A DNA stretch of 64,000 nucleotides, taken from positions 1,024,501 through 1,088,500 of the forward strand of contig NZ_CP133605.1 of assembly GCF_031199965.1 (NCBI RefSeq), in the 5' to 3' direction. The translations under genes were made by a program, and so were the position numbers. The notes under the pieces were generated by a model. It was given only the letters and a program-made list of their open reading frames with translations, was not told the DNA's origin and ran no database searches. The stretch comes from Paenibacillus sp. D2_2 (GTDB lineage: Bacteria > Bacillota > Bacilli > Paenibacillales > Paenibacillaceae). Shown in pieces: positions 9,426 to 16,626 of this stretch (positions within the stretch are counted from its first letter, which is position 1; the number at the start of each line of letters is the position of its first letter).

Positions 9426-9540
9426 TTTATCATTGAAGGATATATGAACCCAGAGATGAAATTATTATAATGGAGTTTATAGAAAACCGAACTCTTTATG
9501 AACTGCATTTATAGTAAATGAAAGGGATGGATTGAATAGA

Positions 9541-10821: not shown

Positions 10822-12981
10822 GTGACAAGTCAACGTATTAGCCAATTAGTGAAGGAGATGACGCTTAAGGAGAAGGCGGCCCAGCTATTACAGCTAGCTG
10901 CTCCTTTCTATGAAGCTGGGGATGGACAGATTACCGGGCCGATGGAGTCGCTCGGCATTAGCGAGACAGAAGTTAATGATGCAGGATCGGTGTTGGGGAT
11001 CGCTGAAGCAGAGAAGATTATTCAGATCCAGCAAGCTTATTTAGCCAAGAGCCGACTCGGGATTCCGCTGTTGTTTATGGCAGATATTATCCATGGGTTC
11101 AAGACGATCTTTCCGATTCCACTGGCGATGGGATGCTCCTGGGATTTGGAACTGGCGGAGAGAAGCGCCGAGGTAGCTGCCAAGGAGGCAGCGGTGTCAG
11201 GTCTACATGTGACGTTCGCCCCGATGGCAGATCTCGTCCGTGATCCACGATGGGGTAGGGTGATGGAGTCGACGGGCGAGGACCCTTATTTGAATGCTCT
11301 CTTCGCTAGAGCGATGGTTCGCGGGTTCCAAGGAGAGGATTTGACTCATGATACCGATCATGTCGCTGCTTGTGTGAAGCATTTCGCCGCTTACGGTCTG
11401 GCCGAGGGCGGCCGGGATTATAATACCGTTGATCTATCAGAACGAAGCTTGCGCGAATATTATTTGCCTGGCCTACAAGGCTGCGCTGGAGGAAGGCTGT
11501 GAGATGGTGATGACCTCGTTCAACACGATCGATAGCATTCCGGCGAGCGGCAACCGTAAATTAATGCGTGACTTGCTGCGCGGTGAGTGGGGCTTTGATG
11601 GTGTGCTTATATCGGACTGGGCAGCGATCGGGGAGCTGATTCCCCATGGTGTAGCGGAAGATGAGCGCGAAGCGGCGCTCAAGGCAATTACCGCAGGGGT
11701 CGATATTGAAATGATGACGGCGGCCTATGTGCACCATATTCCGCAATTGGTGGCAGAGGGACTCGTCGATGAAGCGCTGGTGGATGAAGCGGTAACCCGG
11801 ATTCTGGAGCTGAAGGAGAAGCTAGGCCTGTTCGACAACCCGTTGCGCGGCGCCGATCCTAAGGCAGAGCGGGAAGTTGTGTATTGCAATGAGCACCGCC
11901 GGATCGCACAGGAGTTGGCTGCGAAGTCCAGTGTTCTGCTCAAGAACGAAGGCGTGCTTCCTCTCCAGCGTGAGCAGAAGGTGGCTGTCATTGGGCCATT
12001 TGCTCAGAGTGGAGATATCCTCGGCTCTTGGTCTTGGGCCGGATCGAAGGAGACTGCGGTACAATTGGGTGTTGCCATGGAGAAGCTGGCCGGAGCGGAT
12101 CAGATCATCCTCGCGGAGGGCAGCGATATCATGACTATAAGCGAGCAGCAGTTGCAACATGCTGAGGCCACAGCGCAAGAGGCCGATGTGATTGTTCTCG
12201 CCCTGGGAGAAGCCGCAGCAATGAGCGGTGAAGCGAGCAGCCGCAGCAATATCCAGCTTCCTGAAGCTCAGCTTAAGTTGATTCAAGCGATGAAGCGTCT
12301 TGGTAAGCCGTTGGCTGTCGTGTTGTTTAACGGCAGACCGCTTGACTTGCATGGGTCATTGATCAAGTCGATGCTGTGCTCGAAGCTTGGTTCCCGGGGA
12401 GTGAAGGGGGCGCAGCCATCGCCGATCTATTGTATGGTGTGGTCAATCCTTCCGGGAAGCTGACGATGTCATTCCCTTATGCGGTAGGACAAATTCCGGT
12501 TTACTATAATCACTTTAATACCGGGCGTCCGAAGCCAGCGGAGGATACGGATGAGCAGTATGTCTCCAAATATTTAGATATCCCTAATGCGCCGCTGCTG
12601 CCTTTTGGCTATGGATTAAGCTATACGACATTTACCTATAGCTCGCTTGAATTATCCTCTGAGGTGATGACAGTTGCGAAATCCATCAAAGTGACTGTAC
12701 AAGTCTGCAATACCGGTGAAGTTAAAGGGATTGAGACTGTTCAACTCTATGTCCGTGATATTTCCGGTGAAGTGGTACGTCCAATGAGAGAGCTCAAGGA
12801 CTTTCGCAGAATTGAACTGGCACCGGGAGAAGCAGCGCAGGTCGTGTTCGAGCTTGGCGAGGAACAGCTTCGCTACTATCATAGTGATCTGTCATTCAGC
12901 AGCGATACGGGAAGGTTCGAAATATTCGTCGGGCCGAATAGCTGTGATACGCTGCAGGGCGGATTTCGACTTGATAAATAG
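10822..12981 (+). CDS. Glycoside hydrolase family 3 beta-glucosidase, BglX-like (two frameshifts)
   Basis: About 719 residues, no signal peptide, so probably cytosolic. It hydrolyses terminal beta-linked glucose or xylose from imported oligosaccharides. The TIM-barrel domain (residues 1-330) contains FMADIIHGFKT, MESTGEDPYLN, CVKHFAAYG and the nucleophile motif GVLISDWAAI. The middle alpha/beta sandwich starts near LLKNEGVLPL, and the C-terminal FnIII-like domain includes PFGYGLSYTTF and GIETVQLYVRD. Frame breaks: an extra G near 11466-11475 (repair gives LREYYLPAYKAALEEGC) and a missing G at about 12349 (repair gives LAWVIDQVDAVLEAW). The GTG start at 10822 has GGAGG 9 nt upstream. The LacI regulator upstream and palindromic operators imply substrate-induced expression. 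Confidence 0.92.
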
Positions 12982-13009
12982 AGAGGATTGGCATGGATAG
13001 ATTTTGAAC

Positions 13010-13050
13010 TTACAGCCGCTCTGCAGTTTTCCTGCATGCAGCGGCTGTAA
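13010..13050 (+). terminator. Strong hairpin after the beta-glucosidase gene
   Basis: TTACAGCCGCT pairs perfectly with AGCGGCTGTAA, extended by CTGCAG/CTGCAT. It has only a weak T tract (ttcattt), so it may be a terminator of low efficiency or an RNA-stabilising hairpin. Confidence 0.55.
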
Positions 13051-13133
13051 TTCATTTCACGGTATGTAAGCCCTTTATTTAATATACTCAAGGAAGAGAA
13101 GGAAGGGATTGGAACGGTAAGGAGGGAAGGGGA

Positions 13134-14204
13134 ATGAATGAGCAACAGAAGTACCGGATTATTATGCAGGGAATACGCAGCGGCAATGTGGCGGAAACCT
13201 GTAAGGAATTTGGTATTTCACGGACGTTATACTACCGCTGGTACAATGCTTACATCCGGCAGGGAGTAGCCGGTTTGAGCGAGAAGCCGCGCCAGCCAGT
13301 GATGCCGAATCAGGTTGATCGTAGAACGGAGCGAATGATCCTGCAATATGTGGTGCGCTGCCCGGAGGATGGACCGAGACGAATTTTGTATGAACTGCAG
13401 GATGAAGGCATTCGTACGGGAGAATCAGGAATATATAATGTGCTCCGCAGACATGGGTTAAGCCGAAGGGAAGAACGGGAGAAATTTGCTGAAGAGATAA
13501 GGAGCCGGAAGGGAAGCCGTGGTCACCGATCCAATTCCGCACAAAGCGCGGATAAAAGGCAGGCTCGTTCCGTCCAGACCAAGGGAGTTAAGCACCCTCA
13601 GCTGGATTACCGGATGGATGATCCTGATCATGCTTATCCCGGATATATTTGCTTGCAGACTATTCAATATTTGGGGAAGTTCCCGGAGGTGGGAGAGTAT
13701 ATCAATATATTATTCTTGATTCATATTCCAGACTGGCTCTCGTTAAGCTCTACAATCAGAAGTCGTCGATTCACTTGATCGATTTCATGCGCTTCAAGAT
13801 CATGCCACTGCTTCGAACCTTTCATCTGAAGATAGATCATATTGTAACGAATAAGAGTCAGGAATTCTCAACCGCCTGGGAGCGGGGGAATCATAAGTAT
13901 ACGGACTATTTACATAAGCAAAACATTAATTCCATAGTTTACAGCGCCGACCATCCTGAAGTGTTCCAGCCCTTACATGAATTTACGAGTGTATTGATGA
14001 ACCGGTTCTACCAGCCTGTCTGGCATGAGGGGGACAGATTCCTTCGAAGCGCTTGAACAACGTCTTGATCAGTATATGAAATACTATAATTTCATGCGTC
14101 CTCTGGAGGAGGGGAGCAACAGCGGGAAAATTCCCTCCGATATCGTGCTAGATTCCAGGGGGATCCAAGAGCCGCTGCCATTATGGTTGTATACGAGGAG
14201 ATGA
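13134..14204 (+). CDS. Degenerate IS481/IS3-like transposase-related protein, likely domesticated (two frameshifts)
   Basis: 356 residues when repaired. Residues 1-60 are a transposase-type HTH (EQQKYRIIMQGIRSGN, CKEFGISRTLYYRWYNAYI) and residues 65-110 a second HTH (MILQYVVRCPEDGPRRILYEL). The C-terminal half has the outline of an integrase core (YQYIILDSYSRLALVKLYN), but the usual catalytic residues look lost. The first Asp context WQTDTTY is replaced by YRMDDPD, the DNGxEF motif reads TNKSQEF, and the final Glu region reads HPEVFQPLHEF. Breaks: a missing G at about 13655 and an extra G in the run 14028-14034. No terminal inverted repeats or target duplication were seen. The stop (14202-14204) overlaps the next ATG as ATGA, so it behaves as an operon member rather than an inserted element. 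Possible role: DNA-binding regulator. Confidence 0.7.
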
Positions 14205-15462
14205 GTATCTTGGTCGGTAGAGAAGAGCATATAGGGATTGTCGGGCGGGAATTTCCGGGCTGTCGTTAGCTCATGAGTTAGAACTCAAGGGTTATCCCTC
14301 CGTGACCGTTATGGAACAGGCTGACCGGGTCGGAGGCAAATGCTGCTCGATTGAATATAAAGGGCGGACCTATGAGATGGGCGCCTTGATTGGCCTGCCA
14401 TCATACAAGTTGACGATGGAGTATATGGAGAGATTTGATCTGCTGGAGAAGGGGCCTTTGTTGGACAGAGGCTTTTTCCACCCGCAAGGGAGCAGAATCT
14501 CGCAGATTCCGCTAGAGCAGATGCCTGACTTCGCTCGTGAATTCAAGCGCCTGCCATCGCTGATGAGACGCTATGAATCTGTAAGGGAGCCTGGGTTCAG
14601 GCAGGTGCCGCCGGAACTGTGCAAACCATTTTCCACCTGGTGTGACGAGAATGAGCTGACTGTGCTGAGACAGGTATTCATGCATTATTTCTGCGCCTTT
14701 GGCTTTGGCAACATAGATGATGTACCAACGGTATATGTCATGAAGCTGCTTAATTACGATAATCTGATGTCATTTATTGAGATTACGCATATGATCTCCT
14801 GGCCGAGCGGTGTTACTGAGCTACCGCGAAGAATGGCAGACCGGGTCTCTGATCTGAGATTAACCTGTGAGGTACAGCGAATCTACCAGGAAAATACGGG
14901 CGGAGTCAGAGTGGAGACGAATCAGGGACCGTTATATTTTGATAAAGTGATCTATACCGCGCCGCTACAGGGCTTTGCACAAAAGGTCGAGCTTATTCGG
15001 GATGAAGAGGAGCTGTTCAAGAGTATCATTGATGAGAAGTTTCGTGTCTATGCCTACAGAGTCGAAAATATGCCTAAGCTCTCGGGATACATACCCGACA
15101 ATATGGGGATTGCGTCCAGAGGAAACATGATGGCGTGGTATTACAGATGGGCGGATCTGGCGCAGACAGATCTGATCACGGTCTATGTAGCTGAGAATGA
15201 TCACATGAGCGATGCAGAAATACGAGAGAATATTGAATCCACACTTGCCTCGCTTGGCGGAGAGAATATCCGGCTATATATGATGAAGCGGTGGAATCAC
15301 TTTCCGCATGTGGATACAGCAGCACTAGAGAGTGGGTTCTATGAGCGGCTTGAAAATCTGCAAGGGAAGAATGGTATTTATTTTGCTGGTGAAATTATGA
15401 ACTTTCCGACGCTTGAGAATTGTATCCGTTATGCTAAAGCACTAGTGAACCGTTATTTTTGA
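14201..15462 (+). CDS. FAD-dependent oxidoreductase, amine oxidase/protoporphyrinogen oxidase-like (one frameshift)
   Basis: 420 residues when repaired. The N-terminal Rossmann motif is restored by adding one G at 14243-14245, giving HIGIVGAGISGLSLAHEL, followed by VMEQADRVGGKC, the FAD ribose-binding Glu and GG doublet of the flavin amine oxidase fold. The C-terminal FAD-binding segment is YFAGEIMNFPTLENCIRYAKA. Between these is a large substrate domain with ITHMISWPSGVTELPRRMADRV. It is translationally coupled to the transposase-like gene (ATGA overlap). The class includes protoporphyrinogen and phytoene desaturase-like enzymes, but no heme or carotenoid gene is nearby, so the substrate is unknown. 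Confidence 0.8.
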
Positions 15463-15560
15463 ACTAGTCGGTAATTGTCGAATTATGCGAAATTTTACTT
15501 TAAAGTTGTGTTTACAGATATATCATGAATTTTCCGCGCCGTATATGGATTTTAGATTGA

Positions 15561-15665
15561 GAAAGACACGATAAGCATAGTGTAAACCTATCTCTAAAGA
15601 AATGTCTGCGAAGCCTGTAAGGGCGGGCCTTCTCGGGATTTGATAGCTTGGTCATGAATCGATAT
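15561..15665 (+). other. Candidate structured leader RNA (weak c-di-GMP-I/GEMM resemblance)
   Basis: Between the FAD gene and the DUF5692 gene lie, in order, CACGATAAGCATAGTG, AAACC, AAAG, GCGAAGCC, a GC-rich hairpin (gcctgtaagggcgggc) and GATAGCTTGGTC. The order AAACC / AAAG / GC-AAGCC / GATAGC-GGT is that of the GEMM-I c-di-GMP riboswitch, but the P1b stem pairs poorly and several invariant positions differ. It may be degenerate, another RNA class, or chance. The rest of the 250-nt gap shows only the DUF5692 ribosome binding site. Confidence 0.22.
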
Positions 15666-15712
15666 ATTCAAAGCAAGAAGCGATTACATCGATCAAAGAG
15701 GAGGCTAATTCA

Positions 15713-16626
15713 ATGTTCCTATTCGAGGCAATGCCTTGGTATTCTATCGTGATGTGGTTTGTTGTGCTTGCAGGCTTAATGCTGGTGAATGAACTGGCGC
15801 GAATGAGTAAATGGGTGTCTCTGGCTCTCTTTCTGGTACTGCCAATCGTACTGACGATTGCGGTATGGCCGAATACGGCGGGGAAGGCTCTAGCGTAGGT
15901 ACTTGGTTTCACTGGGTCAAGGTCTATTCTGCACTAGCTGGTTGTCTGGGCTTCATGGCACTGAGATTCATTAAGGGAATGGATAAGAATAAATACATGC
16001 TAATGTTCCCAGCGATTATTCTAGCCATTAATATTCTTGAAGCCGTCATTCGTGATTTTCAGGTATATAGCCTGAATGGTATGGTGGATGGTGTTATGAT
16101 GATTGGCGGTCCTTGGAATATCATGAATGGCATCGCAGGCCTGCTGAACATTATTACGATCTCCGGATGGATGGGAATTGTGGTCAGCAAAGGCCGCTCC
16201 CGCGACATGGTCTGGCCGGATCAGCTTTGGTTCTGGATTATCGCCTATGATATCTGGAATTTCGCTTATGTGTACAATTGCGTATCTGACCACTCTTACT
16301 ATGCTGGTGCTGCTCTGCTTATCTCTTGTACGATTCCAGCATTCTTTATCAAGAAAGGAGCATGGCTGCAGCATCGTGCGCAGACACTGGCGATATGGAT
16401 GATGTTCACGATGTCCTTCCCGGCATTCGTAGGTGAATCCAAGTTCGCGGTACAGTCTTCGCATAGCGAGACGGCATTATGGGTAGTCAGTAGCTTGTCC
16501 CTGGCAGCAAATATCGCAGTATTCGTCTATCATGTCTATAAAATTACGAAGCATAAGCGCAACCCGCTCAAGGTGGAAGTATATAGCGATTTGAAGGCGT
16601 ACAAGGCTGTTGCTGAGCAGAACTAA
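15713..16626 (+). CDS. DUF5692 family multi-pass membrane protein (one frameshift)
   Basis: 304 residues when repaired by one G in the run 15880-15883 (giving NTAGEGSSVGTWFHWVKVYS). About eight to nine hydrophobic helices are visible: residues 8-27, 35-55, 65-85, 90-108, 130-150, 175-195, 205-222, 230-250 and 255-275. Distinctive motifs are GTWFHWVKVYSALAGC, GGPWNIMNGIAGLLNI and LWFWIIAYDIWNFAYVYNCV. This matches my recollection of the DUF5692 family of Paenibacillus and Clostridia. There is no known function. Many buried Trp, Tyr and His residues suggest a small-ligand or cofactor pocket, which is inference. The start has GAGGAGG. It stands 250 nt after the FAD oxidoreductase and may be co-regulated with it. 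Confidence 0.75.

Follow-up and report, generated by a model that had tools for sequence, protein, structure and literature searches.

A DDE-less IS481-derived protein as candidate regulator of a conserved module containing a fatty acid isomerase-type flavoprotein and DUF5692

The 64,000-nucleotide stretch of the Paenibacillus sp. D2_2 genome analysed here (the window; contig NZ_CP133605.1, positions 1,024,501 to 1,088,500) contains three consecutive plus-strand genes that encode, in this order, an IS481 transposase-like protein with two helix-turn-helix (HTH) regions, a flavoprotein of the flavin amine-oxidase type, and the membrane protein DUF5692. Between the second and third genes lie two facing copies of a bipartite DNA sequence that we regard as a candidate operator. 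A first-pass annotation of the window had proposed that the three genes form a system built around a domesticated transposase. Here, we describe a comparative analysis of this locus and of its relatives in Paenibacillus and Clostridia. The frame breaks, the candidate operator pair and the extension of the system to HypA, HypB and IsrA in anaerobes are new to this analysis. The features of the locus are as follows, FAD denoting flavin adenine dinucleotide and PAI polyunsaturated fatty acid isomerase.

13134..14204, plus strand: IS481-derived gene with two HTH regions and without the DDE triad, a likely regulator; broken here over three frames (open reading frames 13134-13778 and 13649-14056, then a last piece that runs to the TGA at 14202-14204).
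14201..15462, plus strand: FAD protein of the PAI family, by homologues and profile matches; its start lies in a different frame from its body (open reading frame 14302-15462).
15494..15516: candidate operator, upstream member, TTTACTTT-N8-GTTTACA, an exact match.
15581..15603: candidate operator, downstream member, inverted, TGTAAAC-N8-AAAGAAAT, with 2 mismatches, 87 bp from the first.
15713..16626, plus strand: gene for the multipass membrane protein DUF5692 (PF18948), probably the gene that the candidate operator pair controls; spread here over two frames (15713-15898 and 15811-16626).

The transposase-like gene had been annotated as a single open reading frame, a description that must be abandoned, the gene being spread over three frames in the window. 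Intact homologues of about 335-366 amino acids exist, and the close ones are uninterrupted and 84-86% alike over the part compared. Frame breaks are spread across many window genes, for example near 9532, 10822, 17884 and 33076, and the upstream GH3 glucosidase and several further genes are also split. When orthologues within window positions 5700-41700 were compared with the close relative G008, 12 of 25 were frame-split, against 0 of 20 in a control comparison of two other relatives; sequencing error is therefore likelier than decay of the locus, and the window assembly is probably rich in small errors. Since the breaks affect so many genes, readings of the window that are based on open reading frames need care. 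The annotation had also taken an ATGA overlap between the stop of the HTH gene and the start of the flavoprotein gene as a sign of translational coupling. The overlap is real, at 14201-14204 and likewise in G008; it is not general: at 42 such junctions, called mechanically, the stop and start range from a gap of 45 nt to an overlap of 62 nt.

The product of the first gene retains both HTH regions, as had been claimed, with PF13518 above its cut-off and PF13565 just below. The claimed loss of the integrase catalytic acids extends to the whole family. In the window gene the second acid is replaced (VTNKSQEF), and the D-D-E triad is kept in none of 101 family rows, a partly redundant mixture of loci and database proteins in which the first Asp column holds Asp once, whereas all five IS481 controls (L114-L116, L123 and L124) keep it. 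Kinship with IS481 transposases is still evident in the homologue P0002, which matches NF033577 (IS481) with an E-value of 2.2e-43 and 148.8 bits, short of the curated cut-off of 224. An AlphaFold model of this intact protein (pLDDT 80.5, pTM 0.55) predicts helical DNA-binding regions at the N-terminus together with an integrase-type core, which a fold search matched best to the cores of IstA, TnsB and retroviral integrases. A tree of the family resolves clade A, which includes the window gene, and clade B (L052-L058 and L089-L091); the five controls share one branch between them, on long branches next to L038. Seven phylum genomes have an A1 match and no flavoprotein, and the triad is intact in the three of them that were read.

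The annotation had named multicopy homologues bounded by terminal inverted repeats as a finding that would speak against its reading; what we found instead was a gene at one place in 34 of 39 genomes. The five genomes with two or three places comprise a tandem duplicate (G068), a second diverged module (G085 and G088), a single broken gene in two pieces (G096), and one full plus one broken copy (G089). A search for terminal inverted repeats around the window HTH gene found none, in agreement with the annotation, and long inverted repeats flank the control IS481 genes L123, L115 and L116.

The order of the genes is conserved beyond this strain, as the annotation had suggested checking. Of 62 loci in named genomes, 44 entered the neighbourhood counts, with L051 and L053, which end inside a gene, and L059-L074, 16 distant HTH-only matches with no flavoprotein match, left out; the flavoprotein gene directly follows the HTH gene in all 44. 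Within the genus, all three families occur in the same 7 of 40 genomes, and the remaining 33 carry none. The phylum was sampled with 398 genomes, drawn with the flavoprotein rather than the HTH gene as query, and contained 9 flavoprotein places in 7 genomes; the HTH gene lies directly upstream in all 9, and DUF5692 is present in all 7 genomes. The distance matrices of the HTH and FAD proteins correlate with an r of 0.97 (n = 41 loci), a value reached in none of 2000 permutations. The proposed three-component system is thus a conserved module, and its first member a domesticated, DDE-less ex-transposase. No description of the module was found among the matches listed for open-licence PMC articles, subscription papers and preprints being outside the search. 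Individual loci vary. The HTH and DUF5692 genes of L050 (Fontibacillus phaseoli) are degraded, the flavoprotein frame and both DNA sites being kept; in L019 (Paenibacillus sp. HOT.CON.154) the HTH gene, flavoprotein gene and site are in tandem duplicate with the same match values, which may be real or an assembly effect; in L052 a second amine-oxidase-type gene (12582-14117, 512 amino acids), preceded by a site, stands right behind the HTH-FAD pair; and L131 (G089, Anaerosalibacter) is a second, broken HTH-FAD pair with its own site pair.

The second component had been called a flavin oxidase; its relatives suggest that it is probably a flavin isomerase instead. The only full-length relative among the best 60 rows from the PDB was 2b9w, with an E-value of 4e-68 for a single sequence (next match, 2.8e-7) and 7.9e-96 for a profile (next match, 9.5e-17). 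This entry, labelled 'putative aminooxidase' in the PDB, is the polyunsaturated fatty acid isomerase PAI according to PMC2885616. The flavoprotein and PAI are 33% identical, and 22 of the 23 positions that are invariant in 39 homologues are identical in 2b9w. The equivalents of PAI Arg88 and Phe193, which we take to be the substrate gate residues, are kept in 39 and 36 of the 39 homologues, respectively. Public records carry generic or misleading names for this family ('protoporphyrinogen oxidase', 'flavin monoamine oxidase family'). With the two test proteins, the listed NCBIfam models all scored under their cut-offs, and most of these matches covered the FAD region at the N-terminus; TIGR00562 (protoporphyrinogen oxidase) reached 35.1 and 53.2 bits against a cut-off of 97.85. 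Among the functions guessed at in the annotation, membrane lipid modification came near the mark, given the kinship with a fatty-acid isomerase, and redox sensing and quinone modification have gained no support.

When the sequences preceding DUF5692 in Paenibacillus were aligned, and likewise the divergent HTH/HypB region of Clostridia, one pattern emerged with the same spacing in both, TTTACTTT-N8-GTTTACA. At two mismatches or fewer, 0.15 matches are expected in the window, and 1 of 100 shuffles contained two. Across the 44 loci (860 kb) we observed 18 exact sites, 40 at up to one mismatch and 72 at up to two, against expectations of 0.0, 0.6 and 7.35, and 37 of the 44 have a site within 700 nt after the FAD gene or before the HTH gene. 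The exact site occurs five times in the 40 genus genomes, once each in five of the seven with the module and always between the flavoprotein and DUF5692 genes; it is found in none of the 33 module-less genomes, and the reversed pattern has a single match over the whole set. The other two module genomes have the site with one and two mismatches, at the loci that also appear as L017 and L022. All 11 further HTH-FAD loci, two of which had served in seeing the pattern, have a site at up to two mismatches, and none of seven DUF5692 or IsrA loci that lack the HTH-FAD pair has one near those genes, although L121 has a two-mismatch match 7 kb off and L122 is a DUF5692 fragment only. Finally, a search of 48 genomes, 45 of them with the module, found the exact site at 22 places in 18 genomes, and the reversed pattern four times. 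HTH-FAD loci account for 21 of these places; the remaining one, in G085, lies on another contig upstream of two tandem DUF5692 genes and has a facing partner.

The sites are usually paired. With up to five mismatches together, and with the HypB promoters taken as the regions to examine in L041 and L049, a facing pair is present in 45 of 55 regions; other orientations occur in 4 to 7, and shuffled regions gave none in 10 rounds. Counted with up to four mismatches per site, the same number of regions contains 49 pairs, 43 of them with five or fewer mismatches together, and of these 26 are spaced at the commonest distance of 83-88 bp; the tandem duplicate L019 was left out of both counts. Where a clade B locus has a divergent operon, the facing pair separates this operon from the HTH-FAD pair. 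This distribution looks like that of a regulator with a small regulon, and the two half-sites would suit the two HTH regions. A different box, TGTAANT(C/G)A(T/A)(T/C)TCA, is present upstream of the HTH gene in all seven sequences aligned (window 13046-13059, L004, L013, L014, L015, L022 and L050); it starts like the candidate operator and does not have the second half.

Outside Paenibacillaceae the module acquires further partners. Clustering of the neighbours at 30 such loci revealed HypB in 25 and HypA in 24, and an IsrA-type Fe-S flavoprotein likewise in 25 (counting a 461-amino-acid partial match in L037); profile matches on one example confirmed the domains of all three. IsrA is a putative isoprene reductase of Acetobacterium wieringae, with CxC pairs at Cys180/182 and Cys254/256 (PMC10134865). 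The clostridial protein, of about 897 amino acids with PF07992 and PF14691, is encoded beside HypA and HypB and often DUF5692, and its CxC pairs, C188/C190 and C262/C264, lie 74 residues apart and are invariant in 23 rows; the features of the IsrA clade (about 900 amino acids, domains, CxC spacing, HypA/HypB) are thus all found in the clostridial loci. PMC10134865 gives HypA, HypB, TetR and DUF5692 as genes neighbouring 988 IsrA homologues; in A. woodii and A. fimetarium the homologue is accompanied by an oleate hydratase, and other homologues are accompanied by an HTH protein. Isoprene is the proposed substrate, and conjugated double bonds are suggested by its authors as the target of the homologues. 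Isoprene is itself a conjugated diene. The words 'isomerase' and 'transposase' do not occur in the main text of that paper. In L043, L046 and L047, FmdE-like and FecCD/FecB-type transporter genes are inserted between the flavoprotein and HypB genes, with one site copy before the insert and another before HypB; the insert possibly serves metal uptake for the reductase.

DUF5692 itself is identified by its Pfam profile, the two window pieces scoring 420 and 59 bits against PF18948, whose gathering cut-off is 27. Its homologues have nine long predicted helices and many invariant Trp, Arg, Asp, Glu and Asn residues, and a fold search with DUF5692 returned no recognised fold relative. The leader between the operator pair and the DUF5692 gene (15604-15712; A7) contains conserved stretches, with a short inverted repeat in several relatives, and had no Rfam match.

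Taken together, these observations lead us to consider it probable that a DDE-dead transposase regulates a regulon for isomerisation of fatty-acid double bonds, joined in anaerobes by hydrogenation, through the bipartite site and with DUF5692 as a target. The two-HTH ex-transposase would bind the 23-bp site TGTAAAC-N8-AAAGTAAA; two facing copies, mostly 83-88 bp apart, would place DUF5692 under its control in Paenibacillus, and in Clostridia copies upstream of the operon with HypB, IsrA, HypA and often DUF5692 would do the same for that operon. The flavoprotein would act on free polyunsaturated fatty acids, making their methylene-interrupted double bonds conjugated; the IsrA-type reductase of anaerobes, supplied by HypA and HypB, would then hydrogenate the conjugated product, and DUF5692 may handle lipid at the membrane. 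DNA binding, the direction of control, ligand, substrate and the role of DUF5692 are the parts of this scheme that we infer. The protein might in addition bridge both copies, much as a transposase does with the ends of a transposon. We offer only tentatively the stronger proposal that a bacterial DDE transposase has become a dedicated transcription factor: it would still bring two end-like sites together and would loop the promoter of a regulon for conjugation and hydrogenation of fatty acids.

Several findings weigh against this scheme. DUF5692 is present without the module in 4 of 11 phylum genomes, one of these being a fragment, and lies inside the fetched flanks of only 15 of the 30 non-Paenibacillaceae loci. 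No facing pair was detected in 10 of 55 regions at the threshold used, helical phasing of the pair is weak, and 30 of the 48 genomes searched have no exact site copy. Outside clade B nearly all HTH genes lack an upstream site copy, L043 and L046 being exceptions, so that control of its own gene by the HTH protein is not general; another protein could bind the site. The tree does not indicate a single domestication, one and two such events being indistinguishable in it. Because the identity to PAI is only 33%, the exact substrate could differ from that of PAI. Lastly, a search for IsrA homologues in 17 Paenibacillaceae genomes at an E-value of 1e-150 found none, so that the pathway of these bacteria would stop at the conjugated product.

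Other explanations of the locus were weighed against these data. The homology of the first protein to the IS481 model (below its cut-off), the broken frames in the window and the name 'transposase' in some records might all be accounted for by an ordinary or dying insertion sequence that lies upstream of a metabolic gene by chance. Such an explanation is barely credible given a triad missing in 101 of 101 rows, a single place in 34 of 39 genomes, the lack of terminal repeats in the window, a flavoprotein gene adjoining in all 44 usable loci, the co-inheritance of the two genes and the open frames in relatives; a plain IS481 insertion sequence is ruled out by the conserved neighbourhood and the lost triad. 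It is very unlikely, too, that the observed sites are the ends of a decayed mobile element and the HTH and FAD genes its cargo. The sites are indeed inverted and end in TGT/ACA, two of the control IS481 genes are flanked by inverted repeats that start with TGTATTAG and TGTAAAAG, and in L043 and L046 the HTH gene has a copy in front of it and the FAD gene a copy behind it. The usual pair, however, has the wrong orientation for the ends of an element, with both copies to one side of the genes, the pair in G085 precedes DUF5692 genes on another contig, and there is no multicopy spread.

The remaining alternatives concern the roles of single components. A different regulator might bind the site, or the site might be part of a promoter, and the ex-transposase might have another function, for instance as a flavoprotein partner with a structural or targeting role. 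In favour of this, almost none of the clade A HTH genes has an upstream copy, and the site falls within the stretch where the promoter of the next gene must be. We nevertheless judge it improbable: the site tracks the HTH gene rather than the genes next to it, its spacing is identical from Paenibacillus to Clostridia, its half-sites fit the two HTH regions, and the divergent arrangement in clade B is regulator-like. The flavoprotein, for its part, is unlikely to oxidise or desaturate some other lipid or a pigment, as a protoporphyrinogen oxidase or a carotenoid or quinone enzyme would. The record names point that way, and the FAD domain is common to these families, but the NCBIfam matches stay below their cut-offs and lie mostly over that N-terminal domain, whereas the match to PAI is full length and far stronger, and the Arg88 equivalent is invariant.

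If regulation by the ex-transposase is borne out, a DDE transposase domesticated as an operator-binding bacterial regulator would be in hand together with its site, targets and phylogenetic range, and how recognition of transposon ends turned into control of genes would become directly testable. Polyunsaturated fatty acids would then be a concrete substrate class for DUF5692, a membrane family without a function, and for the widespread and mostly uncharacterised IsrA-type reductases of anaerobes, with a link to biohydrogenation. The stronger proposal with promoter looping, if true, would name the substrate class of both families together.

Downstream of the module, the window contains a TelA family gene (PF05816; 16716-19169, minus strand) in a single frame; a neighbour of that gene, 564 amino acids long in relatives, is split over three frames.

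The components of the module resemble known systems to different degrees. With the IsrA system of A. wieringae the clostridial loci share protein size, PF07992 and PF14691, two CxC motifs 74 residues apart and HypA/HypB neighbours, whereas the Paenibacillaceae modules are without IsrA. With PAI the flavoprotein shares homology over its full length, the same length, the FAD motif and the Arg88 and Phe193 equivalents; it differs in its 33% identity and its coupling to an ex-transposase and DUF5692, and is known here from sequence. IS481-family transposases (NF033577) have the same HTH regions, an RNase H-like integrase core and a similar gene length, but the module protein lacks the triad, the example examined falls under the family cut-off, no terminal repeats were found, and the gene is usually single copy with fixed neighbours. 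Reuse of a dead transposition protein as a regulator likewise underlies TldR, the TnpB-like nuclease-dead repressors. It also underlies eukaryotic transposase-derived transcription factors such as FHY3/FAR1 (PMC13306707). In contrast to both, the candidate regulator described here derives from a bacterial DDE transposase and is associated with a two-part DNA site, with no guide RNA known.

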